NCBI GenBank assembly: GCA_018052945.1
Contig: JAGPMH010000007.1
Location: 1 to 53,357 of the forward strand
Direction: 5' to 3'
Length of the DNA: 53,357 nucleotides
Source: Negativicutes bacterium
GTDB taxonomy: Bacteria > Bacillota > Negativicutes > JAGPMH01
Part shown: positions 415 to 38,462 of the stretch, piece by piece
Layout of the letters: every line of letters begins with the position of its first letter
How positions within the stretch are numbered: the first letter of the stretch is position 1
Position numbers and translations under genes: made by a program
The notes under the pieces: generated by a model
The model's database searches: none
Seen by the model: only the letters and a program-made list of their open reading frames with translations
Told to the model about the DNA's origin: nothing

Positions 415-1197
415 ATGCTGATAATTTTTATAGCGGGCTTAGTTATTGGTAGTTTTCTTAATGTTTGCATTTACCGCCTGCCTCTAGAGCAATCGCTGTC
501 ATTTCCGCCGTCGCATTGTCAACATTGCCAGAGTGCTGTGAAAAAGTATGATTTAATTCCGGTACTAAGTTGGTTGTTATTAGGCGGAAAATGTCGCCAG
601 TGCGGGATGAAAATATCTTATATTTATCCGTTGGTAGAATTATTAACTGCCTTAATGTTTGTCTGGGCTTATGTAGCAACTAATAGTAATTTAGAATTAA
701 TGCGAGCATTGAGCTTAGTCAGTTTTTTTATTGTAATAACTGTTATTGATTTTCAACACCAATTAATATTAGATAAGCTTTTAATACCAATGGCAATAGT
801 TGGTGTGGGGTTTAATGTGCTAATTAATGAGAATTTATTAGCAGGCTATAATTATGGTGCAGAGCTACTAACAGTCAGCTATGCTGAAATGGCGCTGGGT
901 AGTATCATCGGTGGCGGACTATTACTGATAATTGCGATTGTTAGCAATGGCGGTATGGGTGGTGGTGATGTTAAACTAGCAACAGTATTAGGGTTGTGGC
1001 TAGGGTGGCAGTATAATATTACATTATTACTATTATCTTTTATTTTAGGGGGCATTATTTGTAGTTTATTGTTACTGCTGAAAATTAGAAGTCGTAAGGA
1101 TTATATTCCCTTCGGCCCGTTTATTACCTTAGCAGGATGGCTGGTGTATTTATATGGCAAGGAAATTATCAATTGGTATTGGAGTTTGATGAGCTGA
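415..1197 (+). CDS. pilD: Prepilin peptidase / N-methyltransferase (A24 family)
   Basis: This integral membrane aspartyl protease cleaves the leader peptide of prepilins and methylates the new N-terminal Phe. At 260 residues it has the full bifunctional layout: an N-terminal domain with two CxxC pairs (Cys35/38 and Cys60/63), as in zinc-binding PilD/TapA proteins, followed by several membrane helices. The two catalytic aspartates are visible, Asp112 in VIDFQHQ and Asp185 in GGGDVK. The start is set by AGAGGAGG 7 bases upstream. Its stop overlaps the start of the next prepilin gene (ATGA), so it is translationally coupled to its own substrates. Confidence 0.95.
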   Translation: MLIIFIAGLVIGSFLNVCIYRLPLEQSLSFPPSHCQHCQSAVKKYDLIPVLSWLLLGGKCRQCGMKISYIYPLVELLTALMFVWAYVATNSNLELMRALSLVSFFIVITVIDFQHQLILDKLLIPMAIVGVGFNVLINENLLAGYNYGAELLTVSYAEMALGSIIGGGLLLIIAIVSNGGMGGGDVKLATVLGLWLGWQYNITLLLLSFILGGIICSLLLLLKIRSRKDYIPFGPFITLAGWLVYLYGKEIINWYWSLMS

Positions 1198-1640
1198 TGA
1201 ATAAAGGCTTTTTCCTGATAGAGTTGGTAGTGGCGGTAGCTGTGCTGAGTATTTTAAGCAGTATTGTTTTACCGCAACTGGTTAATACTGATAAGTTATT
1301 ATTAATGGCGGCAGCACAGCAAATAACTGCCGATTTACGCTATTTACAAGAGGTTAACAGCAATGTTAGTGTGGGTAGTAATGATTTTCCGGAAATTAAT
1401 ACTAATTTGGGGTTAGAGTTGGTGTTTTTTCATAAAGAGAATAATGGTTATTATCTGGTTAAAGGCAGTAATGTTGTCAAAACTATTGAGTTACCGAAAA
1501 ATGTTGCAGTAAACAGTTCTTATACAAAAGTGGCTTTTGATACTAATGGTTATACCAAACCTCAGCATATTAATTTAACTGTTAACAGGCAACTCTTGGC
1601 GGTAATTATAAATAGTGCCGGAAGAATTAGAATTCAATAA
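1197..1640 (+). CDS. Minor prepilin / pseudopilin (class III signal)
   Basis: The 147-residue protein begins MNKGFFLIELVVAVAVLSIL. This is a very short leader ending in Gly, a +1 Phe, Glu at +5 and a hydrophobic helix: a type IV prepilin signal to be cut by the upstream peptidase. The start at 1197 overlaps the pilD stop (ATGA); an in-frame start at 1137 would add about 20 residues lying inside pilD and is unlikely. The C-terminal ~110 residues resemble the small beta-sheet head of GspH/FimT-like minor pilins, but I cannot name the subtype. It is the first of four tandem small proteins of this kind, probably the priming complex of the pilus. Confidence 0.85.
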   Translation: MNKGFFLIELVVAVAVLSILSSIVLPQLVNTDKLLLMAAAQQITADLRYLQEVNSNVSVGSNDFPEINTNLGLELVFFHKENNGYYLVKGSNVVKTIELPKNVAVNSSYTKVAFDTNGYTKPQHINLTVNRQLLAVIINSAGRIRIQ

Positions 1641-1657
1641 TAGAATAGAGGTAGATA

Positions 1658-2035
1658 ATGAACAAGAACGGGTTTGTGATAATAGATTGCGTCCTTAGCG
1701 TTTTTATTATAACTACAACTATTTTACCGATATTACATTATATTACTATTTATACCAATAACAGCATTACTTCTTTCAATTATTATCAAGCTAGTATTTT
1801 AGCAGAAAATGAGCTCGAAACTTTGAAGGGTAAAATAAAGTTTGGAAGCAGTAATGGTGTTATTGAGAAAAAAAGTCTGAATAATTATCATTTTACAAAA
1901 AATATCAAAAAGCAAAATTATGAGGTCTATACCGATTTCTCCCAAGCAGAAGATAATCTGGTAAAAGTAAGCGTGAAAGTGCAGTGGCAAGAGGATACTA
2001 AGTATAAAGAGTTTGAACTGGAAAGCTTATTATGA
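1658..2035 (+). CDS. Minor prepilin-like protein with Asp at position +5
   Basis: The 125-residue protein starts MNKNGFVIIDCVLSVFIIT. The G|FVIID cleavage context and following hydrophobic stretch mark it as a prepilin, probably PilV/GspI-like by size and position. The normally invariant Glu5 is replaced by Asp, which keeps the negative charge used in subunit docking. The start is supported by AGAGGTAG upstream. The stop overlaps the next start (ATGA at 2032), indicating coupling. Apart from the N-terminus the sequence is too divergent to assign. Confidence 0.75.
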   Translation: MNKNGFVIIDCVLSVFIITTTILPILHYITIYTNNSITSFNYYQASILAENELETLKGKIKFGSSNGVIEKKSLNNYHFTKNIKKQNYEVYTDFSQAEDNLVKVSVKVQWQEDTKYKEFELESLL

Positions 2036-2526
2036 AGAAGTGCTATTATAATTTTGCTAATCAGGGTTTTATCTTGGTAGAATTAATACTATATTGTCTG
2101 TTGATAATGCTGATAACACAGGTTTTAGCTAATGTGATGGTTAGCACTTATAAAAATTATCAGTGTTGTCTGACTCAAATTGAACTACAACATAATATCA
2201 GATTTGCAGTAGAAAGCATTGAAAGAGATGCTTTCTTGGCAAAAAAAATAGAAGTTAATAATAATGTATTGTTGATTTTCAAAGGAACTGATACTACTAA
2301 TGAAGTAGTTCGTTATGAACTGAGCAGAAAATATCATCCGTATCGTTTAATGCGAGATGGCCAGCCGGTTACCGGTAACAGCATCAATAATGAGGTGGAA
2401 ATTTCAAGTTTTTCACTAATAAAAAAAGGAAATAATATTCTGGATGTGGAAATTATAGGAGTTGATAGTAATAGCTCCGAATATTTAGCCATAGATAAAG
2501 TCATAAATATCATGAATGAGACTTGA
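2032..2526 (+). CDS. Minor prepilin (PilW / ComGF-like)
   Basis: The 164-residue protein carries the prepilin motif NQGFILVELILYCLLIML (Gly, +1 Phe, Glu +5). A slightly longer, cysteine-containing leader (MKKCYYNFANQG) precedes it. Length, position as third in the cluster and a head ending in a hydrophobic beta-rich segment fit PilW/GspJ or ComGF-like minor pilins; the exact subtype is uncertain. It overlaps the previous gene by 4 bases, and its end runs to within 10 bases of the next start. Confidence 0.75.
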   Translation: MKKCYYNFANQGFILVELILYCLLIMLITQVLANVMVSTYKNYQCCLTQIELQHNIRFAVESIERDAFLAKKIEVNNNVLLIFKGTDTTNEVVRYELSRKYHPYRLMRDGQPVTGNSINNEVEISSFSLIKKGNNILDVEIIGVDSNSSEYLAIDKVINIMNET

Positions 2527-2536
2527 AGGTGTAGTG

Positions 2537-2953
2537 ATGAACAACCAAAAGGGCTTCATGACAGTTTTAGCAATGGTGATGATGGGGATAATGTTGTTAT
2601 TGCTATTTAGCTTAACAACGGTTAAAACGGCAGATAACCAAATGAAGTTAGTATACTATGACGGTATTAAAGCGCGGTATCTTGCTGAAGCCGGAGCTAA
2701 AAAAGCTTATATGAAAATTTCAAATGATGAATATTTTCGTCAGCAACTGAAAATTAATCATGCTGCCATAAATTTAAATTCCGCTAAGCAAGAATTTAAC
2801 AATGGCTTATATGAAGTTGCAGTGAAATATAACAATGAAAAATTTGAAATTTATGCCAAAGGTACATGCGAAACCGCTCAAAGGCAAATAATTTTATGGA
2901 TAGAAGAATTAGATAACAATGATTATAAAATTATTGCTTGGAAAAATTGTTAA
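2537..2953 (+). CDS. PilX-like pilus assembly protein lacking Glu5
   Basis: The 138-residue protein starts MNNQKGFMTVLAMVMMGIML. A short basic leader, Gly-Phe junction and hydrophobic helix resemble GspK/PilX proteins, which naturally lack Glu5 and sit at the fibre tip; here +5 is Leu. It continues with ARYLAEAGAKKAYM, similar to the helix after the membrane segment in PilX-type proteins. I chose ATG at 2537, preceded by GAAGGTG, over an in-frame ATG at 2516 lying inside the previous gene. By analogy it would complete a minor-pilin tip complex with the three genes before it. Confidence 0.7.
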   Translation: MNNQKGFMTVLAMVMMGIMLLLLFSLTTVKTADNQMKLVYYDGIKARYLAEAGAKKAYMKISNDEYFRQQLKINHAAINLNSAKQEFNNGLYEVAVKYNNEKFEIYAKGTCETAQRQIILWIEELDNNDYKIIAWKNC

Positions 2954-2984: not shown

Positions 2985-3275
2985 ATGGATAATAAAAAGT
3001 TTCAAATTGTTAACTGTATGGAAAAAGCAGTCTTTGATCACTTGGATAATATCATCAATGAAAATAAAACTATTTGTAAATGTGAAAAATGCCGAATGGA
3101 TGTTGCTGTGCTAGCCCTTAATACGTTAAAGCCACATTATGTTTTAACATTAAAGGGTGGAACTTTTACTAGATTAAAACTATACGAAACACAAAGTGAA
3201 GCTGATATTATTTTTGCGTTAACAAAAGCTATAGAAAAAGTCGAGGGTAATCCACAACATGAAGAGCTATTATAG
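2985..3275 (+). CDS. comFB: ComFB family protein (late competence; candidate cyclic-dinucleotide receptor)
   Basis: The 96-residue protein matches ComFB in layout: an N-terminal NCMEKAVFDHLDNII helix, a paired-cysteine motif CKCEKCRMDVAVLALN, then LKPHYVLTLKGG. ComFB was first known as a late competence gene product of Bacillus subtilis. The family has more recently been reported to bind cyclic dinucleotides and to affect motility, which I cite from memory. It lies within the pilus operon: 31 bases after the fourth prepilin gene and overlapping pilM by 17 bases. That supports a regulatory role in pilus function or DNA uptake. The ATG follows AGAGGAAGAG. Confidence 0.8.
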   Translation: MDNKKFQIVNCMEKAVFDHLDNIINENKTICKCEKCRMDVAVLALNTLKPHYVLTLKGGTFTRLKLYETQSEADIIFALTKAIEKVEGNPQHEELL

Positions 3276-4344
3276 TAAACTTGTTGGAAAAATAAAAAAT
3301 AGAATATTGCCATCAAAAGAAAGTGTATTGGGAATTGATGTTGGGCCAGGGTATTTGAAAGTAGTAGAATTGTCGTTAGTAGAAGAAAATACTATTAAGG
3401 CAGTGGCTATTAATTCGTTAGATAAAAGTATTTTTGACGAAGAGGGTATTGCTGATATAAATTTACTGAGTCAAATCCTAAGAAGAACCATCGAAGTTAA
3501 TGGTATTAGTGCAAAACACGCTGTTCTTTCCTTGGGCGGGAGAGCTTTGTTTGCCAGAGAAATTTTATTTCCCAAAATGACAGAAACAGAACTTACCGAG
3601 GCGATAAAATGGGAAATTGAAAAATATGTGCCATATGAGCCGGAAAAGTATTTTTATGATTACAATGTTATTGGTGAAGCGGAAAATGGCAAAGAAATCA
3701 GAGTGATGTTGGTAGCTGCACCAAAAGGTAATGTAGAAAACTTGGTTAGTTTGGTGAAAAGTGCAGGTTTAAAACCATTTATTATCGATGGTGAAACCTT
3801 TGCTTTGTCACGGACAATTGGCGTCGAAGATTATATTTGTGTTGATATTGGTAAAGTAAATACTCAAGTTATTATTTATCAAGATGGGGTGCCAATCACA
3901 AATCGTAATATTCCGTTATTCGGTGATAGTTTTACAAGAGCGATTGCACAGGTGCTAGACCTTGATTATGTTGAGGCGGAGTCTTTTAAACAACGTCAAA
4001 AAAACTTGGTAACTGTACTTGGACAAGTCGAAACAGTAACACCGGTTCAAGAGAAACTTAATGAAATGGTTGATGAATTAGGCAGGGAAATATTACGGAC
4101 GATAGAATATTTTCAAATTCAAAAGCGTGAAGCGGTTTTTGAAAAAATCATTATCAGTGGTGGCGGGGCTAGATTGGATGGTTTAGTAAACCGTTTAGCC
4201 ACTGAGATTAGAATACCGGTAGAAATGCATCAACCATTACAAAATTTGCAATGGATAAAATCGTTTGATAAACAATATTTACAAAGTGTTGCACCACAAT
4301 TGGCGATTGCAGTAGGGTTAGCGTTACGCGGAGGTGAAGAGTAA
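3259..4344 (+). CDS. pilM: Type IV pilus inner-membrane platform protein PilM
   Basis: PilM is an actin-like cytoplasmic ATP-binding protein that docks onto the N-terminus of PilN. The 361-residue protein shows the expected motifs: GIDVGPGYLKVVEL near residue 25, the central WEIEKYVPYEPEKYFYDY segment, YICVDIGKVNTQVIIY as the second phosphate-binding strand, and ISGGGARLDGL near residue 300. The length is normal for the family. It overlaps comFB by 17 bases and abuts pilN (the stop TAA overlaps the ATG), so the genes are translationally coupled. Confidence 0.93.
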   Translation: MKSYYSKLVGKIKNRILPSKESVLGIDVGPGYLKVVELSLVEENTIKAVAINSLDKSIFDEEGIADINLLSQILRRTIEVNGISAKHAVLSLGGRALFAREILFPKMTETELTEAIKWEIEKYVPYEPEKYFYDYNVIGEAENGKEIRVMLVAAPKGNVENLVSLVKSAGLKPFIIDGETFALSRTIGVEDYICVDIGKVNTQVIIYQDGVPITNRNIPLFGDSFTRAIAQVLDLDYVEAESFKQRQKNLVTVLGQVETVTPVQEKLNEMVDELGREILRTIEYFQIQKREAVFEKIIISGGGARLDGLVNRLATEIRIPVEMHQPLQNLQWIKSFDKQYLQSVAPQLAIAVGLALRGGEE

Positions 4345-4883
4345 TGATTAAAATTAACTTGTTACCACCGGAACAGCGTAAAGTTAAAATTCCGCTAAAA
4401 AAAGCCTTTCTGATAACCTCAGGGTTGGTACTAATGTTGTTGATTGCTGTTTATACAGGAGCCTTAGTGGAAGAATATTTTTTAAAACAAGAATTGGCAA
4501 AAGTTAATGAAACTTATCACCAAATGTCATATGTGATGGATACAAAGCAACAGTTTGATGTTAAGCAACAAGAAATTAATAAACGCAATGATATCTTGGT
4601 GAAGTTATCGAAAAATACAAAATCGTGGAACTCTTTATTAATTCACTTAGGAAGTATTATGACTAATGATGTTTGGTTGACTGATGTGAAGATGAATGAT
4701 AAACAAGTGTTAAGTATCAGAGGGATGGCGGCATCTTATCCGGCATTGGCAAAAACTTTAAAAAACTGTGAAAAAGATACTTACTTTAATAATGTAAACT
4801 TGGTTAATTCTGAAGCGGGTAAAGGTGAGCAAGACAAGATGTTAACCTCTTTTGAAATTCAAGCAAGCTTCAAGGAGTTGTAG
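4344..4883 (+). CDS. pilN: Type IV pilus assembly protein PilN
   Basis: The 179-residue bitopic protein starts MIKINLLPPEQRK, the conserved cytoplasmic INLLP motif that inserts into the groove of PilM. A single membrane helix follows at about residues 20-43, then a coiled coil and a small ferredoxin-like extracytoplasmic domain that pairs with PilO. The motif, topology and position between pilM and pilO make this assignment secure. Confidence 0.92.
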   Translation: MIKINLLPPEQRKVKIPLKKAFLITSGLVLMLLIAVYTGALVEEYFLKQELAKVNETYHQMSYVMDTKQQFDVKQQEINKRNDILVKLSKNTKSWNSLLIHLGSIMTNDVWLTDVKMNDKQVLSIRGMAASYPALAKTLKNCEKDTYFNNVNLVNSEAGKGEQDKMLTSFEIQASFKEL

Positions 4884-4886
4884 ATA

Positions 4887-5465
4887 TTGGAAAAGATAAC
4901 GGCTAAATTGGAGACAAGGCATAAAATATTTTTCTTTGTACTGGGTCTTGCTATTGTAGTGATGGTGTTTTATACTTATGTATATCAGTCGCAACAACAA
5001 TGTCTTGCACAGTTGAACACTGATTTACAAATGATAAAACAAAAAGTGCAAGTATTGGAAGGTTTTTTAGTGCAACATCCTGATTTAAAGCAATATGAGA
5101 AAGAATTGCAAGATAAAACAGATTTAGTTAATAGTAAATTACCGGCAGATAAAGATATTAGTTCTTTTATTATGCAAGTAGAAGACAGTGCGAAAAAAAC
5201 TAATGTAAAATTAAATAGAGTAAAGCCAATCGGCGAAGAAAATAAAGAGAATTATCGAGGCATTAAGGTCGAATTAGATATTACCGGAGATTATTTTCAA
5301 ACTTTGGAATTTCTAAAGAAATTAGAACAGTTGCAGCGTTTTAATACTGTGACAGATATGAGTGTTCAAGCGAAAGATGAAATTTTGAACAGTAAATTAT
5401 CGCTACTGGTATATTCTTATGGAGTAACACCGACTGAGGCTAATAAAACTCAAAATAATAATTAA
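4887..5465 (+). CDS. pilO: Type IV pilus assembly protein PilO
   Basis: The 192-residue protein has a short cytoplasmic tail, one membrane helix at about residues 13-33, a coiled coil (residues ~38-60) and a C-terminal domain with GIKVELDITGDYFQTLEFLKKLE, typical of PilO. It would form the PilN-PilO periplasmic ring that couples motor and fibre. It begins with TTG, preceded by AGGAG at 9 bases. No pilP or pilQ follows; the next gene is aroC after a terminator. Confidence 0.88.
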   Translation: MEKITAKLETRHKIFFFVLGLAIVVMVFYTYVYQSQQQCLAQLNTDLQMIKQKVQVLEGFLVQHPDLKQYEKELQDKTDLVNSKLPADKDISSFIMQVEDSAKKTNVKLNRVKPIGEENKENYRGIKVELDITGDYFQTLEFLKKLEQLQRFNTVTDMSVQAKDEILNSKLSLLVYSYGVTPTEANKTQNNN

Positions 5466-5474
5466 AAATTTGTT

Positions 5475-5507
5475 GCGTCTATCTCTTTATAAGGTAGACG
5501 CTTTTTT
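5475..5507 (+). terminator. Terminator ending the pilus operon
   Basis: The hairpin pairs GCGTCTATC (5475-5483) with GGTAGACGC (5493-5501), with one G-U pair, and is followed by TTTTTT. It ends the pilD-pilO unit just before aroC. Confidence 0.8.
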
Positions 5508-5528: not shown

Positions 5529-6674
5529 ATGTTTCGTTTTTTAACATCAGGAGAGTCTCATGGACAAGCTTTGACAGCAATTGTCGAAGGAATTCCAGCA
5601 GGACTGAAAGTTGATCTGGATTTTATCAATAAAGATTTAGCTAGACGCCAACAAGGTTATGGTCGTGGTGGCAGAATGAAAATAGAAAAAGACCAAGTAG
5701 AGATTTTATCAGGAGTTCGTTTTGGTGAAACTATGGGTGATCCAATTACCTTGCTAATAAAAAATAAAGATTGGGCTAATTGGCAAGAAAAAATGTCGGT
5801 AGCCGGAGCTGAATTTGGTCCGAAGGTTACTGCTGCTCGTCCAGGACATGCCGATATTACGGGTGTTCAAAAATATAATCGCAAAGATATTCGCGATATT
5901 TTAGAACGGGCTAGTGCCAGAGAAACAGCCAGTCGAGTTGCGGTAGGCGGGTTTGCAAAAATATTATTAAAAGCTTGTGGTATTGAAGTTGTTTCTCATG
6001 TTACTAATATTGGTGGCGTAAAGATCACCAAAAAAGTAGCAACAGCAGAATTGTTTGATAACAGTAAATCCGAATTAAATTGTTATGATGAAGTTGCAGA
6101 ACAGCAAATGATGGAAGTTATTGATAATGCCAAAAAAGCCGGTGACACTTTAGGTGGTGTGTTTGAGGTTGTTGTGACCGGCGCGGTTAAAGGTCTTGGT
6201 AGCCATATTCAATGGGATACCAGATTAGATGCTAAAATTGCGGCGGCCTTAATGTCAATTCAAGCAATTAAAGGTGTTGAAGTTGGTGAAGGGTTTGAAT
6301 ATGCCAATTTACCGGGTAGTAAAGCTCATGATGAGATGTTTTTAACTGAAAATAAAAATTATATGCGTAAAACTAATCATGCCGGTGGCATTGAGGGTGG
6401 AATGAGTAATGGTGAAGAAATTGTTGTAAGAGCGGTTATGAAGCCGATTCCAACTTTGATGAGACCGTTAGCTTCAGTTGATATTGAAAGTAAAAATGAA
6501 GTTTCGGCCAATACAGAGCGTAGTGATGTTTGTGCTGTATCGGCAGCTTCTGTTGTTGGTGAAGCGATGGTGGCAATTGCTTTAGTCGAAGTATTGTTGG
6601 AAAAGTTTGCTAATGATAATATGGCAGATTTATTAGCGTCGATTAAACAATACCAAGAGCGAATTGGTTGGTGA
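5529..6674 (+). CDS. aroC: Chorismate synthase
   Basis: This enzyme converts 5-enolpyruvylshikimate-3-phosphate to chorismate using reduced FMN, the last step of the common aromatic pathway. The 381-residue protein has the family signatures: GESHGQALTAIVEGIPAGL at the N-terminus, RRQQGYGRGGRM (residues ~41-52), RPGHADITG, the RDILERASARETASRVA block and, late in the protein, NEVSANTERSDVCAV. The length is typical. AAAGGATG precedes the ATG. It overlaps the region before aroK and starts an aroC-aroK-aroB operon. Confidence 0.97.
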   Translation: MFRFLTSGESHGQALTAIVEGIPAGLKVDLDFINKDLARRQQGYGRGGRMKIEKDQVEILSGVRFGETMGDPITLLIKNKDWANWQEKMSVAGAEFGPKVTAARPGHADITGVQKYNRKDIRDILERASARETASRVAVGGFAKILLKACGIEVVSHVTNIGGVKITKKVATAELFDNSKSELNCYDEVAEQQMMEVIDNAKKAGDTLGGVFEVVVTGAVKGLGSHIQWDTRLDAKIAAALMSIQAIKGVEVGEGFEYANLPGSKAHDEMFLTENKNYMRKTNHAGGIEGGMSNGEEIVVRAVMKPIPTLMRPLASVDIESKNEVSANTERSDVCAVSAASVVGEAMVAIALVEVLLEKFANDNMADLLASIKQYQERIGW

Positions 6675-6678
6675 GACA

Positions 6679-7209
6679 GTGAATGTTGTATTAATTGGGT
6701 TTATGGGAACAGGTAAAAGTAGTATTGGTAAATTATTGTCAGCGAAACTTGGCTATAAATTTGTTGATAGTGATCAGCAGATTGAATATGATTTAAAAAT
6801 GTCGATTAGTGATATTTTTGCTAAACATGGTGAAAATTATTTTCGCCAAGCTGAACATAGAATTATAAAGAAAATTTCTCAGTATAATAAAGCTGTCATT
6901 TCTACCGGTGGCGGTGTAGTGTTAAATAAAGATAATATGGTAGAATTGCGAAAAAAAGGGATGGTTATTTCACTCAGTGCATCCATTGACACTATTTTGG
7001 AGCGGACTAATCGCCGTAATAATCGACCGCTCCTAGAACAAGAAGACCGTAAAGCAGCGATTACGGAGCTTTTGGCAAAAAGGGCCGAATTTTATGCTGA
7101 TGCTGATTTGGTGGTTGATACCGGTAAATATAATCCGCAAGAAGTGGTTCATATTATTTTAAACTTTCTAAAAGAAAAAGGAGCAGTCTATGCCAAAAGT
7201 AAAGGTTGA
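6679..7209 (+). CDS. aroK: Shikimate kinase
   Basis: The enzyme phosphorylates shikimate at the 3-hydroxyl with ATP. From GTG at 6679 the product has 176 residues and opens NVVLIGFMGTGKSSIGKLL, containing the P-loop GFMGTGKSS. It also has DSDQQIE (shikimate and Mg binding), FRQAEHRII, STGGGVV and the lid RTNRRNNRPLL. An in-frame TTG at 6664 would lie inside aroC and extend the protein beyond the usual N-terminus, so the GTG is preferred; its SD is weak, suggesting coupling to aroC termination at 6674. Confidence 0.93.
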   Translation: MNVVLIGFMGTGKSSIGKLLSAKLGYKFVDSDQQIEYDLKMSISDIFAKHGENYFRQAEHRIIKKISQYNKAVISTGGGVVLNKDNMVELRKKGMVISLSASIDTILERTNRRNNRPLLEQEDRKAAITELLAKRAEFYADADLVVDTGKYNPQEVVHIILNFLKEKGAVYAKSKG

Positions 7210-8275
7210 TTTACCTAATAATTCTTATATGATAGAGATTGGTTATGATATTTTAGGGCAGATTGGTCAAGAAATAGCGGAGTTTAATTTTTCAAAGCAA
7301 TTATTATTAATCACTGATGATAATGTAGAAAAGTTATATGCCGATACAGTACAAGTGTCATTAAAGCAACAGGGCTACTTTGTCGAGAAGTTTGTTATTC
7401 CGGCCGGAGAAAGTTCAAAATCTTTTGATATGGCTAAAGAAATTTATACTAAAGCGATAAAAATGGGGCTGGATCGTAAAGGCGCTATTATTGCTTTAGG
7501 GGGTGGCGTTGTTGGTGATTTGGCAGGATATATTGCCTCAACTTATTTGCGGGGGATTCCTTTTATCCAAGTGCCAACTAGTTTACTAGCACAAGTTGAC
7601 TCCAGTGTGGGCGGAAAAGTTGCGATAAATCATGAGTTAGGTAAAAATTTAATTGGTTCATTTTATCAACCCAAAAAAGTTTTGATTGATTTAAAATGCC
7701 TAGAAACGCTACCGAAACGCGAAATTATTTCGGGAATGGCGGAAATTATTAAGTATGGCTTTATTTATGACCAAGATTTATTTTCTTATCTTAGTGCAAA
7801 TAGTCAACAGCTAATGGCTTTAAATTTTGAATGTTTAGCAAAAGTAGTGTCTAGATCTTGTGAAATAAAAGCTGATGTAGTCAGACAAGATGAAAAAGAA
7901 GCAAACCTTAGAGCTATTTTAAATTTTGGACATACTATTGCCCATGCGATTGAAAGTAATACTAAATATAAGCTATATACTCATGGTGAAGCGGTGGGGA
8001 TTGGATTATATGGAGCAGTATTGTTAAGTCATTACCACGAAATGGTTGATGTCAATACTGTTAGAGTAACCAAAGAGCTTTTAGAAAAGTTTGAATTACC
8101 GTTACAAGCTAAGCAGTGTAATGTTGACACTTTGTTTGAGATTGTCGGTCGTGACAAGAAAGCTGTTAATGGTAAAGTTAAATGGATTTTATTAGCTGAG
8201 ATTGGGAAAGTTATAATTAGCGATCAAGTATCAACTGAGCAAATTAAGAAAGTCTTACATGAAATTGTAGTTTAA
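7190..8275 (+). CDS. aroB: 3-dehydroquinate synthase
   Basis: The enzyme cyclises 3-deoxy-D-arabino-heptulosonate 7-phosphate to 3-dehydroquinate using NAD+ and a divalent metal. The 361-residue protein has the NAD-binding segment IALGGGVVGDLAGYIAS, then PTSLLAQVDSSVGGKVAINH, MAEIIKYGF and the metal-binding NFGHTIAHAIE and HGEAVGIGL motifs. The ATG overlaps the end of aroK by 20 bases and is preceded by AAGGAG, indicating tight coupling. The order pil genes then aroK-aroB recalls the pilMNOPQ-aroKB arrangement of many Gammaproteobacteria. Confidence 0.97.
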   Translation: MPKVKVDLPNNSYMIEIGYDILGQIGQEIAEFNFSKQLLLITDDNVEKLYADTVQVSLKQQGYFVEKFVIPAGESSKSFDMAKEIYTKAIKMGLDRKGAIIALGGGVVGDLAGYIASTYLRGIPFIQVPTSLLAQVDSSVGGKVAINHELGKNLIGSFYQPKKVLIDLKCLETLPKREIISGMAEIIKYGFIYDQDLFSYLSANSQQLMALNFECLAKVVSRSCEIKADVVRQDEKEANLRAILNFGHTIAHAIESNTKYKLYTHGEAVGIGLYGAVLLSHYHEMVDVNTVRVTKELLEKFELPLQAKQCNVDTLFEIVGRDKKAVNGKVKWILLAEIGKVIISDQVSTEQIKKVLHEIVV

Positions 8276-25512: not shown

Positions 25513-26346
25513 GTGTTAGAGGGAAATATAACTATGTTCGACTCTTTGGTCAAATCAGCAGAGGTTATTCAAAAAATTATCCCACTGGATTGTTGTATTA
25601 TGATTTGTAATAAAGAGGGGTTAATTGTAAAATTTGTTGGTGCTGAAAGTTTTGATATGAATGTTAGAGAGGGGAGTGGTGTTGCTAAAGGTGGCTCACT
25701 TGGTGAATGTATAGCGACAGCCAAAATTGTTCATAAAGCAATACCTAAAGAAGCTTATAATGTACCAATTAAGGCCATTGCAGTGCCGATTTTTGATAAT
25801 AATAATGTATTAATCGGTGGCATTGCCACAGGTATAAGCTTAGCGAATCAAGAGGCACTGCTAGATTCGGCACAAATTATTGCAGCAACCTCAGAAGAAA
25901 TGACAGCCACAACTCAAGAATTAGCAGCTACTGCAACGCATTTATCAAGTGGTCTGGATGATATTCAGTCAATTGGTAATTCTGTTATTAATGAAGTTAA
26001 AAAGACAGATGATATTTTACGCTTTGTTAGTGATGTTGCAGCAAATTCAAACTTATTGGGGTTAAATGCCGCAATTGAAGCGGCAAGAGCTGGTGAACAT
26101 GGTCGAGGGTTTGCAGTAGTTGCTGAAGAAATCAGAAAAATGGCAGTTAATAGTGCTGAAGCTGTTAATGATATAAAGGATATTTTAAATAATATAAGAA
26201 AAGAAGTCGAAATTTTAAAAAATAAAGTTGAAGAAAACTCATCCATGGCAGAGCGCCAAGCAACCGCTACGCAAGAAATTGCAAAAGATATGGAATCATT
26301 GGCGGCATCCGCAATCGAAATCGAAAAAGTTGCTCAAATAATTTAA
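25513..26346 (+). CDS. Soluble methyl-accepting chemotaxis protein
   Basis: The 277-residue protein has no membrane segment. The first ~110 residues form a small sensory domain with [20 protein letters not shown] and [19 protein letters not shown]. The rest is a short chemoreceptor coiled-coil hairpin whose tip [20 protein letters not shown] (~residues 179-198) is the highly conserved CheA/CheW contact. Layout and size resemble YfmS-like soluble receptors of Bacillus. The ligand is unknown. Either GTG 25513 (GAGGAAAG upstream) or ATG 25534 could be the start. It is monocistronic, between two terminators. Confidence 0.9.
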
Positions 26347-26350
26347 TGTT

Positions 26351-26391
26351 AAAATAGCAATAAGAATTAAAATTCTTGTTGCTATTTTTTT
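26351..26391 (+). terminator. Terminator after the chemoreceptor gene
   Basis: An 18-bp stem, AAAATAGCAATAAGAATT (26351-26368) with one G-U pair, is followed by TTTTTTT. Confidence 0.85.
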
Positions 26392-26423
26392 GCAAATTGA
26401 TAATTTTTTTTATAAACTATTAA

Positions 26424-26452
26424 TTACAAAAAACTTTATTATAAGATATAAT
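26424..26452 (+). promoter_or_regulatory. Promoter of the EAL-HDOD gene
   Basis: TTACAA (26424-26429) and TATAAT (26447-26452) are 17 bases apart, about 30 bases before the start codon. Confidence 0.6.
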
Positions 26453-26480
26453 ATAAATAGTTGATTTTTAGGAGGTAGCC

Positions 26481-27692
26481 ATGGATATTTTTTTAGCAAG
26501 ACAACCTATCTTTAATAAGAATATGGACGTTTATGGTTACGAACTACTTTATCGTAATAACAATGTGAAAAATCTTTGTCAATTTTTCAATGCCAAAGAA
26601 GCGTCGCTGGAAGTTATTGCTGCCAGCTTTGTAGTAATTGGGTTGACAAAATTAACCGGTGGAAAAAAAGCCTTTATAAATTTTACGGAAGATTTATTAC
26701 AAGAAGAATTTGCCACGATTTTACCTAAAGAAGATTTGATAATAGAAGTATTAGAAGATGTTGAGCCAACAAAAGAAAATGTGGAAGCTTGTCATAACTT
26801 GGTTAAGGCAGGCTATAAAATTGCTTTAGATGATTTTGAATATAAAGCAGCGTATAATGATTTAATTAATATTTCGTCAATAATTAAAGTTGATTTTATT
26901 AATAGCAGTAGAGCTGCTTGTAAAGAACTTATTAATAAGTATAAAAATAGCAAGATTTTATTTCTTGCTGAAAAAATTGAAACACAAGAAGATTTTGAAT
27001 GTGCCCTAGCTATGGGTTATTCCTTGTTCCAAGGTTATCATTTTTGTAAGCCGGTTATTTTATCAGCGAAAAAGGTGGAGCCGTTTAAAATAAATGCCAT
27101 TGAGCTGATAAAATTGGTAAATGAGGATGTTCCTAATTTTAAAGAAATTGCTAAGGTTATAGAAAATGATGTATCATTATCATTTAATTTATTAAAACTG
27201 GTTAATTCCTTAGCTTTTAGTCGCGGGACAAAAATAAAATCAATTTTACAGGCGATATCGTTATTAGGGGAAAAAGAAATTCGTAAATGGATTACATTAG
27301 TGGCCATTGAAAAAATTTCTTCAGACAAGACTAAAGAGCTGTTGCGACTTAGTATTATAAGAGCTAAGTTTTGCGAAGTGCTTTGTCATAAATTTTCTTT
27401 AGGTAATAGAAAGACAGAACTATTTTTATTAGGTTTGTTTTCGTTAATGGATGCAATGATGGATGTTCCGAAAGAAGATGTTTTTTTAGAATTACCAATT
27501 TCCGAAGAATTGAAAGAAGCTTTAATTAAGCAAACCGGTATTTTTGCTGATTGCTATGAAATAATGATTGCTTATGAGCGGGCAAACTGGGGCTTGGTAG
27601 CACAAATTGCTGTAAAATATAAATTAGCAGAAGCCGAGATTGCGACAGCATATTATGAGGCAGTGAAATGGTTAAATAACAATATTGAATAG
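26481..27692 (+). CDS. EAL-HDOD signalling protein, EAL domain degenerate
   Basis: The 403-residue protein joins an EAL-like domain (~1-195) to an HDOD domain (~200-385), the layout of B. subtilis YuxH and Vibrio cholerae CdgJ. It opens MDIFLARQPIFNKNMDVYGYELLYR, where the catalytic EAL/LLR motif has become ELLYR. The usual DDFGxGxSSL is DDFEYKAAYNDL, and QGYHFCKP survives. Loss of metal ligands implies no c-di-GMP hydrolysis; a binding or scaffold role is more likely. Relatives influence motility and biofilm. AGGAGGTAGCC precedes the ATG. Confidence 0.88.
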   Translation: MDIFLARQPIFNKNMDVYGYELLYRNNNVKNLCQFFNAKEASLEVIAASFVVIGLTKLTGGKKAFINFTEDLLQEEFATILPKEDLIIEVLEDVEPTKENVEACHNLVKAGYKIALDDFEYKAAYNDLINISSIIKVDFINSSRAACKELINKYKNSKILFLAEKIETQEDFECALAMGYSLFQGYHFCKPVILSAKKVEPFKINAIELIKLVNEDVPNFKEIAKVIENDVSLSFNLLKLVNSLAFSRGTKIKSILQAISLLGEKEIRKWITLVAIEKISSDKTKELLRLSIIRAKFCEVLCHKFSLGNRKTELFLLGLFSLMDAMMDVPKEDVFLELPISEELKEALIKQTGIFADCYEIMIAYERANWGLVAQIAVKYKLAEAEIATAYYEAVKWLNNNIE

Positions 27693-28377: not shown

Positions 28378-28938
28378 GTGAAGAATAAAATTATTATTTC
28401 CTTAATACTACTAAGTTTGTTTTTAATTAGTGGAGCAGTAAATGTATTTAAGGAGAATAATGTTATTACAGAAGAGGTAAAACAAGAAATTACAGAAAAT
28501 GGACAGAAACTAGAGAGTGACATTACTGTTTATGTATCAGGAGCGATTAATCATCCTGGCACTGTAAAGTTAGCAGAAGGTAGCAGTGTTGCTGATGCTA
28601 TTGCCCACAGTGGAGGAGCTTTATTGACGGCGGACTTAAGTAAGCTGAATTTAAGTGAAGCGCTAAAGGATGGGCAACAATTAAATGTTCCTGAAAAGCC
28701 ATTGAAAATTATTAATGGTGAGGCGATGGTTGGTGATGCTAAACATAGTAAAGTTAATATTAACACTGCTGATGAAAAAGAACTTGATACTTTACCGGGA
28801 ATTGGCCCGGCCATGGCAAAGGCTATTATATATTATCGAAACAATAATGGCGGTTTTAAAAATATTGAAGAATTGAAGAACGTAAAAGGAATTGGTGATA
28901 GTAAATATAAGAAAATAGAAGACTGTATTGAGTTGTAA
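28378..28938 (+). CDS. comEA: Competence DNA receptor ComEA
   Basis: The 186-residue protein has an N-terminal membrane anchor (IIISLILLSLFLISGAV), a SLBB-like domain (DITVYVSGAINHPGTVKLAEG, ~residues 50-110) and a C-terminal helix-hairpin-helix DNA-binding domain (VNINTADEKELDTLPGIGPAMAKAII). ComEA binds incoming double-stranded DNA outside the cytoplasmic membrane for ComEC. The start is GTG with TGGAGGTGAAG ahead. It overlaps or abuts comEC, forming a comEA-comEC operon. Confidence 0.94.
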   Translation: MKNKIIISLILLSLFLISGAVNVFKENNVITEEVKQEITENGQKLESDITVYVSGAINHPGTVKLAEGSSVADAIAHSGGALLTADLSKLNLSEALKDGQQLNVPEKPLKIINGEAMVGDAKHSKVNINTADEKELDTLPGIGPAMAKAIIYYRNNNGGFKNIEELKNVKGIGDSKYKKIEDCIEL

Positions 28939-28939
28939 A

Positions 28940-31264
28940 ATGGATTCTTACATTTTACGACTCAATATTTTACTAATAACCTTTGTTAGCTTTTTGTTGT
29001 TAATTCATCAGCAATATAATATTTACTTTATCCTAAGTTTGCTCTTTGCTTTGTTGTTAATTTTATATTATAGAACAAAAAACTTAACATTATTGATCTT
29101 AGTGATGCTTTTTTCGCTAATTGGTGTTACAAGAGGTTTAACTACTGATTTTGCTATGAAATCAGAATTTATTGAAAATGAAGTCGTTGAAATTACCGGA
29201 GTCGTGGTGGCGGTGCCGAAGGTTACAGAAAAAGATAATGGTGATATTAGTATTAAATATGTTATTGACTTTTCTAATAAAGATCATACTAAGAAAAAAA
29301 TCTTAGCATATGTAAAATATAAGAAAAACACAGTGAGAACTGAAGCTAAGGTTAATGATATCGTGAAGCTACGAGGACAGTTTACAGCACAACAAAACTA
29401 TAATAATCCTGGAGCTTTTAATTATAAGATAAAACTGCTGAATGAAGGTATTGTTGGTAATGTCTTTGTTAAGAATAATGATTTTAGTATAACCAGAGAA
29501 GTAAGAAGTGGCTTTAAATATTATATCTATAAGATAAAAGATAAAATTTTAGAAAATTTAAAAAATGTAATGTCTCCTAATGATGCGGCGATACTTTTTG
29601 ATATGGTTTTTGGGGGCTATGATGGGATTAATCCTGAAGTATTAAAAGCTTTTTCTAGTACTGGTATTGTTCATTTATTATCAGTATCTGGCTCTCATAT
29701 TGCCTTAATAGTTGCATTTATAACTTGGAGTGGAAAACTATTAAAGCTTAGCAATAAAATTAATGCGGTTTTGGGAATAGTAATAATTATAATGTATGCA
29801 GCGTTAGCGGGTTTTGTACCGCCGGTAATTAGATCTGTGCTAATGGGTGGGTTGAGCTTAATTGCTGTAATTTTAGAAAAAGAGGTTTTTGCCAAAAACT
29901 CTCTTAGCATAATAGCATTAGGAATGTTGTTCGTTAATCCATTATTACTATATGATATAAGTTTTCAGTTGTCGTTTATGGCAACGGCAGGATTATTGTA
30001 TTTAGCACCAATAATTAGTGCTAAACTTTATTTCTTGCCTCAAAGTATTAGACAAAATTTAGCAATAACGATAGCAGCGCAATTAGCAACGTTACCTTTT
30101 TTAGCATGGTATTTTAATACTGTCTCTCTCAGCAGTATTTTTAGTAATTTATTAGCAGTACCAATCCTTGAGTTTATGATAATATTAACTATCCTTGGAG
30201 TCTTACTAAGTTTAATGGTACCGCTTGTTGCTAAAGTGTTGTTGGTAAGTTGTAGCTTGTTATTGGGGGCTGTATATGATTTTATAGTTTTACTAAGTAA
30301 ATTTTCTTATGGTAGTGTATATTTGCCATCAGGTAATATTTACTATGGCATCGGCTATTATATTATGTTAGTAGGTGTTTTTAATGATGCTTATTACAGT
30401 GCAATTAAAAAATATGATAAAAAACTATGGTTGATTAATTTTGTAGTAGTGGCAATGATTTTAACGGTAATTGCTTACCAAAATAAGTATAGCTTAAAAA
30501 TGGAAGTGCATTTTATTGATGTTGGTCAAGGCGATTGCTGTTTAGTGATAACGCCACATCGAAAAGCGATATTAATTGATACCGGGGGCAATATTAATGA
30601 TAATTTTAATATTGGTGAAAAGGTTGTTGTACCGTATTTGAGGCATATTGGAATTACTAGTTTAGAATATATAATTTTAACACATTGTCACATTGATCAT
30701 GCCGGAGGAGCCGGTGCAGTTGTTGACAATATCAATACTAAATATGTTTTGATTGGTAAAGAAAATCGTGATTTATATGCTAAGGCAATGAAAAGAAGTG
30801 TTGAAAAGTGTGATAATTTAATTCCGGTGCTAGAGCTAGAGCAATTTAAAATTGATGATGTTATGTTTGAAATTATACCAAGTGAGAATATTATTAGTAA
30901 TAATATTAATGAATATTCTAATGTTGTTAAAGTTAGCTATGGGAAAAATGATTTTATGATTACTGGTGATTTGGAAGTTGAAGGTGAAAATGCTATACTT
31001 AATAAAAACATTAATATTGCCAGTGAAGTTTTAAAGGTAGGACATCATGGGTCTAACACTTCTAGCTCGGAAAAGTTCTTAAAACAGGTACAGCCATTGT
31101 ATGGAGTGATTTCAGTAGGCTACAATAATCGGTTTGGGCATCCTGATAGTGCTGTGCTTGAAAGAATGGAGAAACTAGGAATTAAGATTTATCGTACTGA
31201 TCTTAATGGGGCAATTGTGTTTCAAGCAACTAAAGATAATTTGAAAGTCCAGGCTTTCCGTTAA
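28940..31264 (+). CDS. comEC: DNA uptake channel ComEC/Rec2
   Basis: The protein (774 residues) forms the membrane channel for single-stranded DNA in transformation. It has N-terminal membrane helices and an OB-like region (DUF4131), then the competence domain with LLSVSGSHIALIVAFI and GFVPPVIRSVLMGGL. A C-terminal metallo-beta-lactamase domain follows from ~residue 520 with HFIDVGQGDCCLV and the metal motif THCHIDHAGG, and KVGHHGSNTS further on. All three parts are present, so the gene looks intact. The ATG at 28940 directly follows the comEA stop; an in-frame TTG at 28928 is also possible. Confidence 0.94.
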   Translation: MDSYILRLNILLITFVSFLLLIHQQYNIYFILSLLFALLLILYYRTKNLTLLILVMLFSLIGVTRGLTTDFAMKSEFIENEVVEITGVVVAVPKVTEKDNGDISIKYVIDFSNKDHTKKKILAYVKYKKNTVRTEAKVNDIVKLRGQFTAQQNYNNPGAFNYKIKLLNEGIVGNVFVKNNDFSITREVRSGFKYYIYKIKDKILENLKNVMSPNDAAILFDMVFGGYDGINPEVLKAFSSTGIVHLLSVSGSHIALIVAFITWSGKLLKLSNKINAVLGIVIIIMYAALAGFVPPVIRSVLMGGLSLIAVILEKEVFAKNSLSIIALGMLFVNPLLLYDISFQLSFMATAGLLYLAPIISAKLYFLPQSIRQNLAITIAAQLATLPFLAWYFNTVSLSSIFSNLLAVPILEFMIILTILGVLLSLMVPLVAKVLLVSCSLLLGAVYDFIVLLSKFSYGSVYLPSGNIYYGIGYYIMLVGVFNDAYYSAIKKYDKKLWLINFVVVAMILTVIAYQNKYSLKMEVHFIDVGQGDCCLVITPHRKAILIDTGGNINDNFNIGEKVVVPYLRHIGITSLEYIILTHCHIDHAGGAGAVVDNINTKYVLIGKENRDLYAKAMKRSVEKCDNLIPVLELEQFKIDDVMFEIIPSENIISNNINEYSNVVKVSYGKNDFMITGDLEVEGENAILNKNINIASEVLKVGHHGSNTSSSEKFLKQVQPLYGVISVGYNNRFGHPDSAVLERMEKLGIKIYRTDLNGAIVFQATKDNLKVQAFR

Positions 31265-36896: not shown

Positions 36897-36917
36897 GTTG
36901 CATTGGAGGAAAATAAA

Positions 36918-38462
36918 TTGAAACAAACTGATAGTAATGCAGAAATACAGGATACAGCGACAGCCTTAAGTACCAATGTAAATGCCGTTAGAGCTGTTGC
37001 AAGAGCAGTTGAAGGAACGATTGGTCCGAAGGGGCTTGATACAATGCTGGTTGATAATTATGGTGATGTTATTGTCACCAATGATGGTGTTACCATTTTG
37101 GAAAAAATGGAAGTTAATCATCCGGCGGCCAAGATGCTTATTAACATTGCGAAAGCTCAACAAGAAGCAGTGGGTGATGGTACGACAACTGCGACAATTA
37201 TGGCCGGTAGCATGGTTTCGGAAGGGTTGTTTCAAGTTATCAAAGGTGTTCCCGTAGCTAGAGTAATCGAAGGAATTAAATATTCTCTAGAGCAGGCACT
37301 GCTTTTCATTAAGAACAGTGCAATTAAAATTGAGTTATTGGATGATGAAAATCTTTATAACATTGCGATGGTATCTGGTCGTGAACATAGTGACATTGCT
37401 AAGTTAGTAGTTGAAGCAGCCAAATTAATTGGTAGGGAAAAATTGTGTGACAATAATTTTAAATTGGCAGAAACCATTATTGCTAAAGAAAGTGCAGATA
37501 ATGAAGTTTTTATGGGAGTTGTTGTTACCAAAGAGCGAATGAGTAAGGAAATGCCGGATAGTATTGAAAATGTTGGGATTTTACTTATTGATGATGCTCT
37601 GGAACCGGAAGAAATGACAAGTGAAGCACTAAGAACAGATGCTGGATTTCAGCGCTATTTATTGTTGCAAGAAGAATTTAAGAACAATATACATAAAATC
37701 ATTGATACTGGAGTAAAACTTATTTTAGTGGATCGCGGTGTTAATGAAGTGGCTGAAGAAATGTTAACTGATGCCGGTGTAATGGTGTTACGCCGCGTTG
37801 AACATGCTGAAATGGAAAAAGTAGCAGAACATATCGGTGCAAGAATGATTAAGCGGAATGGCCTTAAAAAATCATTAGAAGAGTTAACAAGATATATTGG
37901 TTTTGCCCAAAAAGTTTATGAAGATAATAAGCTTGAGCAAGTGAGAATTTTGGGTGGTAAAGGAAAACCTATGGCAACCGTTTTGGTAGGAGCTGCAACG
38001 CAAGAGGTTGTTGGTGAAAGAGCCAGAATCGCTAAAGATGCTGCTTCCAGTGTTCAAGCTACCGTTAAAGAAGGTTATATTGCCGGTGGTGGAGCACTTG
38101 AAATTGCGACTGCACAAAAAATCGAAGGGTTGCGAGAGAATATCGGTGGAATGTCGGCTTATGGTGTTGATTGTGTTGTCAATGCTTTAAAGAGGCCACT
38201 AACCCAAATTATTAATAATGCCGGCTATAATCCACTGGAAAAGTTGGAAGAAGTAATAGCAACCCAAAAAAAATTAAATAATACTAATTTAGCGATTGAT
38301 TGCAATACCGGAAATGTTGCTGATATGTTATCATTAGGTGTCATTGATCCCATGTTGGTAAAATATCATGCTGTTAAAGCTGCCGGTGAAGTAGCAATAG
38401 CTATTTTAAGAATAGATACTATCATCCGTAAAAAAGATGAGTCTAATATTGAAGAAAACTAA
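36918..38462 (+). CDS. Group III chaperonin (thermosome/TCP-1-like)
   Basis: The 514-residue protein is not a GroEL. Its motifs are thermosome-type: KGLDTMLVDNYGDVIVTNDG, VNHPAAKMLINIAKAQ and VGDGTTTATIMAG for ATP binding and hydrolysis, with GGGALEIATAQ late in the chain. There is no GGM-rich tail. Group III chaperonins are known from a limited set of bacteria, e.g. Carboxydothermus, where they lie in the dnaK operon and need no GroES. Here it lies between hrcA and grpE behind CIRCE. The TTG at 36918, eight bases after GGAGG, is preferred to a TTG at 36903 inside the SD. Confidence 0.93.
   Translation: MKQTDSNAEIQDTATALSTNVNAVRAVARAVEGTIGPKGLDTMLVDNYGDVIVTNDGVTILEKMEVNHPAAKMLINIAKAQQEAVGDGTTTATIMAGSMVSEGLFQVIKGVPVARVIEGIKYSLEQALLFIKNSAIKIELLDDENLYNIAMVSGREHSDIAKLVVEAAKLIGREKLCDNNFKLAETIIAKESADNEVFMGVVVTKERMSKEMPDSIENVGILLIDDALEPEEMTSEALRTDAGFQRYLLLQEEFKNNIHKIIDTGVKLILVDRGVNEVAEEMLTDAGVMVLRRVEHAEMEKVAEHIGARMIKRNGLKKSLEELTRYIGFAQKVYEDNKLEQVRILGGKGKPMATVLVGAATQEVVGERARIAKDAASSVQATVKEGYIAGGGALEIATAQKIEGLRENIGGMSAYGVDCVVNALKRPLTQIINNAGYNPLEKLEEVIATQKKLNNTNLAIDCNTGNVADMLSLGVIDPMLVKYHAVKAAGEVAIAILRIDTIIRKKDESNIEEN

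Follow-up and report, generated by a model that had tools for sequence, protein, structure and literature searches.

Does a ComFB-family gene that sits in the middle of a type IV pilus operon encode a part of the pilus machine, or does it encode a regulator that is expressed along with it? The question is raised by a Negativicutes bacterium (assembly GCA_018052945.1) whose contig JAGPMH010000007.1 was analysed over positions 1 to 53,357, a stretch of 53,357 nucleotides that is referred to below as the window. An earlier note on this DNA had read the position of comFB, which overlaps pilM, as the sign of a direct, stoichiometric link between the level of a second messenger and pilus assembly or DNA uptake.

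The features of the locus are collected in Table 1. The comFB reading frame lies, as the note had it, inside a type IV pilus operon with minor pilins before it and pilMNO after it, the full order being pilA-pilD-four minor pilins-comFB-pilM-pilN-pilO, then a hairpin, then aroC-aroK-aroB. Intergenic spacing within the operon lies between -17 and +31 bases. The hairpin, just 3′ of pilO, is the only strong terminator-like structure. The note's description of PilM, PilN and PilO as platform proteins has to be corrected, however: these three make up the alignment subcomplex, and the platform is PilC. The genes directly upstream of comFB are called minor-pilin-like on the basis of an N-methyl motif in the first, slightly under the cut-off, and a weak ComGF match in the third, and the block is conserved in relatives. 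Because the window starts at a contig edge, pilA is cut; the upstream part of the cluster is found on contig C36, where aroE is followed by a pilB that runs off the contig end. With aroE-pilB on that contig and aroC-aroK-aroB in the window, the pilus operon is thus set within a shikimate cluster, as in relatives. The contig of the pilus operon also carries the DNA-uptake channel genes comEA and comEC (window 28378-31264), which overlap by 11 bases. Elsewhere in the window, between hrcA and grpE-dnaK-dnaJ, the gene at 36903-38462 encodes a chaperonin whose match to archaeal thermosome models (E 1e-96) is far closer than that to GroEL (E 8e-52) and which is probably of the bacterial group III type.

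Table 1. Features of the pilus operon and its flank, in window coordinates
Feature	Position	Strand	Basis
pilA, major pilin, truncated 5′ by the contig edge	1..351	+	Reading frame open from position 1; both position and phmmer match pilA of relatives
pilD, prepilin peptidase	415..1197	+	PF06750 and PF01478
Four minor-pilin-like genes, directly upstream of comFB	1200-1640, 1658-2035, 2032-2526, 2534-2953 (span 1200..2953)	+	
comFB (96-aa ComFB-family protein)	2985..3275	+	PF10719 82 bits; 4WAI alignment; 42-sequence conservation; AF2/Foldseek
pilM, actin-like cytoplasmic type IV pilus alignment protein	3259..4344	+	PF11104 158 bits; TIGR01175 199 bits
pilN	4344..4883	+	PF05137 47 bits; N-terminal INLLP sequence
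pilO (TTG start)	4887..5465	+	PF04350 52 bits
Intrinsic-terminator-like hairpin closing the pilus operon, before aroC	5475..5501	+	10-bp stem, 7-nt loop, T-run; pattern match alone
aroC-aroK-aroB, shikimate genes next to the pilus operon	5529..8275	+	Sequence identification; recurrent neighbours

The protein belongs to the ComFB family by profile score, zinc-site residues, dimer residues and fold alike. Its PF10719 match, the only one in the genome, covers the entire profile (1-83 of 83) at 82 bits (E 3.2e-23), well above the cut-off of 25 bits. Alignment to B. subtilis ComFB (4WAI) predicts C31, C33 and C36 as zinc ligands and H92 as a probable fourth, a position that is known to tolerate His (PMC4381287), and all five residues of the dimer interface defined in that study are present (N10, E13, D39, N46 and Y52). 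Across 42 aligned sequences, N10, E13, C31, C33, C36, N46, L48, Y52, G58 and H92 are invariant. With the AlphaFold model (AF2, pLDDT 86.7), Foldseek returned convincing matches only to 4WAI (TM 0.70-0.72) and then to 8HJA (TM 0.58-0.59). The stretch shared with the cyanobacterial receptor CdgR, N-ME...D-A-ALN-L-P-Y...G...R, is retained, including the G and R that B. subtilis ComFB lacks. Against NF052654, the NCBIfam equivalog model for the Bacillus late-competence ComFB, the protein scores 49 bits, below the cut-off of 120, and the Bacillus comF arrangement, in which comFB lies between comFA and comFC, does not occur in the window, where the neighbours are minor pilins and pilM. Kinship of ComFB with the eukaryotic calcium-channel beta subunit was also considered and rejected, the weak matches that suggested it being gone with profile and with fold search.

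It is clear from genome surveys that the linkage of comFB with pilus genes is real and wide, and not a matter of chance. Among 380 Negativicutes genomes, with PilM counted at E <= 1e-12, ComFB was found in 146 and PilM in 67 (about 63 once partial actin-like matches are set aside), and 44 genomes, representing 24 genera and 17 families, have comFB immediately 5′ of pilM in the same orientation, with an HMM-to-HMM distance of 71-90 bases. Reading of individual loci adds four genomes with the linkage (G064, G065, G071 and G096). At the level of the phylum, ComFB occurs in 226 of 398 Bacillota genomes, and in a sample of 60 loci from Bacillota outside the class, mostly one per family, comFB lies inside a pilus cluster in 23 and directly before pilM in 12. 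Sporomusa ovata, Pelosinus propionicus, Thermoanaerobacter wiegelii (a complete genome), Caldanaerobacter subterraneus and Thermosediminibacter are named examples. The survey of other genomes that the earlier note had called for, with a lack of recurring linkage as the outcome that would count against it, therefore did show such linkage. The linkage suggests that the bond between comFB and the pilus is old; the ComFB tree (112 rows), poorly resolved for gain versus loss of linkage, requires at least 15 changes as compared with 37 in shuffles. In the open-access literature searched we found no paper that treats the linkage systematically; a single genome had drawn a remark of one line (PMC4374699). 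A candidate comFB-pilM pair outside Bacillota did not hold up: in two Omnitrophota MAGs (L231 4229-8153 and L232 4229-11266) the supposed pilM encodes a 712-aa FtsA/MreB-like protein within a chemotaxis cluster, in which a CheC-like gene, the FtsA/MreB-like gene and comFB are followed by CheR and more Che-like genes.

The genome (1.64 Mb) encodes synthase families of both messengers: its GGDEF proteins number about 20, and it has a single diadenylate cyclase (DAC). This number of GGDEF-domain proteins (G000, e.g., L032-L051) is a high density for a genome of that size. In a sample of 80 hand-picked class genomes, GGDEF was present in all 40 ComFB-positive members (median 16.5) versus 28 of the 40 ComFB-negative ones (median 7.5; Fisher p = 2e-4, ignoring phylogeny and genome size, from which the association might stem). 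A PilC-type protein was about equally frequent in the two groups (38/40 and 36/40, respectively). The pilus has a second potential point of entry for c-di-GMP, in that the genome's own PilB (L263 6-1088, minus strand; G000:C36, beside aroE) carries a near-perfect 53-residue tandem of the 24-residue MshEN c-di-GMP motif, in the form RLG...Q-5-RLG...Q, with Tyr at one aliphatic position as the sole deviation. Motifs of this type recognise c-di-GMP but not c-di-AMP (PMC5013675), so that c-di-GMP probably acts on this pilus without ComFB. At 25513-27692 of the window, the gene for a soluble MCP-signalling protein adjoins that for an HDOD protein whose EAL domain is partial and which may be a degenerate c-di-GMP effector. 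In one Bacillota genome (L172 5563-7216, minus strand), a GGDEF diguanylate cyclase gene is followed, after about 24 bases, by an orphan comFB.

The linkage is far from universal. In 37 of the 60 non-class loci comFB lies away from pilus genes, and in the sampled Selenomonadaceae the pilus operon is still found between aroE and aroC, with comFB outside the operon, elsewhere in the genome, so a pilus role need not be the only role of ComFB. This is the starting point for the alternative that survives best, according to which ComFB is a general cyclic-dinucleotide adaptor with a non-pilus target, and its presence in the aro-pil cluster is that of a long-standing neighbour. Such an adaptor would fit with two genomes (G289 and G290; L078 and L079) in which the site holds no pilus gene, the order being aroE-comFB-aroC-aroK-aroB with pilM elsewhere, and with G061, where comFB follows aroE in a genome lacking any T2SSF protein (L082, L120). 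It would also fit with the frequency of orphan comFB genes in Selenomonadaceae and Clostridia, with a GGDEF gene no more than 2.5 kb away in three orphan loci (the closest being that of L172), with the chemotaxis cluster of the two Omnitrophota MAGs, and with the finding that Anabaena CdgR governs cell size, partly through the transcription factor DevH (PMC13075795). Set against this, 23 of 60 loci falling in a pilus cluster of about 15 kb in genomes of 2-5 Mb is hard to get by chance, and the pilus-cluster position has been kept in many lineages. Overall, we consider a general adaptor unlikely, if worth keeping in mind.

The Selenomonadaceae themselves had at first appeared to lack pilM, there being no convincing PF11104 match, but their loci contain a divergent PilM fused to PilN (L118, PilM-like 90 bits), and "comFB without pilus" therefore does not hold for this family. 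The apparent fusion to PilN (GspL-like; L118 13354-14598, also in L114, L117 and L119) occurs in an otherwise conserved aro-flanked operon, and PilB of the Selenomonadaceae lacks the MshEN region.

A second alternative, along the lines of the earlier note, is that ComFB physically belongs to the pilus base, where it binds PilM (or PilB) in a fixed ratio and so makes assembly messenger-gated. It draws on the adjacency and near-constant spacing of comFB and pilM in the 44 genomes and on the overlap, which is as described: the last 17 bases of comFB are the first 17 of pilM, an arrangement shared with the relative G081 and compatible with translational coupling. The ATG of pilM at 3259 has a plausible Shine-Dalgarno sequence (GAGGG) inside comFB; the next start in frame, a TTG at 3307, would abolish the overlap but lacks such a sequence. 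Yet the overlap is ordinary operon packing, several other junctions of the same operon lying between -4 and +7 bases, and translational coupling alone would set no stoichiometry. Nor is the overlap itself conserved, since the spacing varies from -17 here and in G081 to between about 0 and +14 in many other genomes, and beyond, and some of the larger apparent overlaps are artefacts of start choice. The two genes are also readily separated. In three loci (L124, L125 and L138) comFB comes after pilO and before aroK; in G088 and G063 it keeps company with minor pilins but not with pilM; in G315 a comFB-aroC-aroK-aroB group is separate from pilMNO; in G289, G290 and the Selenomonadaceae comFB is off the operon, as noted above; 11 genomes of the class survey have pilM without ComFB; and G061 (95% complete) and G089 (84%), alone among the 40 sampled ComFB-positive genomes, lack any T2SSF protein. 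Rather than an obligate pair, then, comFB and pilM are genes each of which occurs in many genomes without the other or without it as a neighbour, and a constitutive partner of PilM would not be expected to be so separable. In addition, B. subtilis ComFB-GFP at native level is soluble and shows a diffuse distribution (PMC4381287), a c-di-GMP motif is already present in the genome's own PilB, and the best-studied ComFB affects the levels of pilus genes and proteins and is not a known machine part (PMC12313861). The direct, stoichiometric link to PilM is for these reasons decidedly improbable.

Finally, a competence-system sensor of zinc or redox state that does not bind nucleotides, as proposed for B. 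subtilis, would account for the invariance of three clustered Cys and a C-terminal His in 42 sequences and for the presence of comEA and comEC on the same contig, but it is highly improbable given that the cyanobacterial relatives bind dinucleotides, that the stretch shared with CdgR is retained, that the presence of ComFB tracks GGDEF, and that the score against the Bacillus equivalog model falls short.

The reading that we favour, with a probability of about 0.55, is that ComFB is a receptor for cyclic dinucleotides, dimeric and zinc-binding, by which the output of the pilus is regulated, and not a fixed subunit attached to PilM. The small cytoplasmic protein would form a zinc-binding dimer that binds c-di-GMP and/or c-di-AMP, and the ligand-loaded and free forms would differ in their effect on the output of the type IV pilus or DNA-uptake apparatus, the ligand and the direction of the effect being inferred. 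The effect would most likely be exerted via a partner protein with control over the dynamics of the pilus or the expression of its genes, as in cyanobacteria, and the position of comFB between minor pilins and pilMNO would allow its co-expression with the target system. Cyanobacterial ComFB and Anabaena CdgR both point to a titratable soluble receptor with partners, which favours a co-expressed regulator over a structural subunit, and the cyanobacterial receptor precedent, the presence of both messenger synthases and the GGDEF association together make a regulatory role plausible. It can further be envisioned that the pilus operon of diderm and monoderm Bacillota takes two messenger inputs, with c-di-GMP acting through the MshEN domain of PilB and c-di-AMP, or both messengers, acting on PilMNO through ComFB, such that the pilus integrates the two; we think this quite unlikely. 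Whether ComFB signalling reaches beyond cyanobacteria is a question raised by Samir et al. (PMC12313861). It becomes directly testable through the retention of comFB in the pilus operon throughout Negativicutes and in many Clostridia, since Sporomusa, Pelosinus and Thermoanaerobacter, which can be cultured, are among the bacteria concerned.

How does the locus compare with known systems? The MshEN domain of the PilB/MshE ATPases (PMC5013675) is a c-di-GMP sensor placed in a pilus operon, but its fold and gene are unrelated to those of ComFB. In Tepidanaerobacter acetatoxydans, a "late competence development protein", presumably ComFB to judge by its name, was mentioned as belonging to the second pilus operon (TepiRe1_1523-1531) in a passing remark in 2015 that concerned this one genome and came without analysis (PMC4374699). 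A literature search found no report of ligand binding by any zinc-type ComFB of Bacillota. B. subtilis ComFB (4WAI, PMC4381287) is the best fold match and has the zinc ligands and dimer-interface residues in common with the window protein, and its gene, too, overlaps the next, comFC, by 4 bases. It differs in belonging to a comFA-comFB-comFC operon and in lacking the G and R that are conserved beyond the core, and its deletion gives no transformation phenotype (PMC4381287).

CdgR (Alr3277) of Anabaena/Nostoc, with the Synechocystis c-di-GMP complex 8HJA, shares fold and core motif but lacks the three clustered zinc cysteines; it controls cell size and viability via its ligand-free form (PMC13075795), and no pilus link has been reported for it. 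The closest functional parallel is offered by cyanobacterial ComFB itself (Slr1970 of Synechocystis and Synpcc7942_1924 of S. elongatus), a member of the same family with links to type IV pili, to the levels of pilMNO and to the uptake of DNA. The Synechocystis protein binds c-di-AMP and c-di-GMP with low-micromolar affinity (PMC12313861, 2025), and the earlier note's statement that the family senses cyclic dinucleotides is thus true of cyanobacterial ComFB (PMC12313861; structure 8HJA). Its loss raises PilA1 and causes hyperpiliation, while pilM mRNA, PilN, and transformation and DNA uptake all go down (PMC12313861). The cyanobacterial proteins are longer (20 kDa), the one that was crystallised has no Cys cluster, and their gene adjoins hfq, whereas comFB of the window lies in the pilMNO operon (PMC12313861). 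Overall, the linkage described here extends a known receptor family to the pili of Bacillota and does not amount to a new kind of system.
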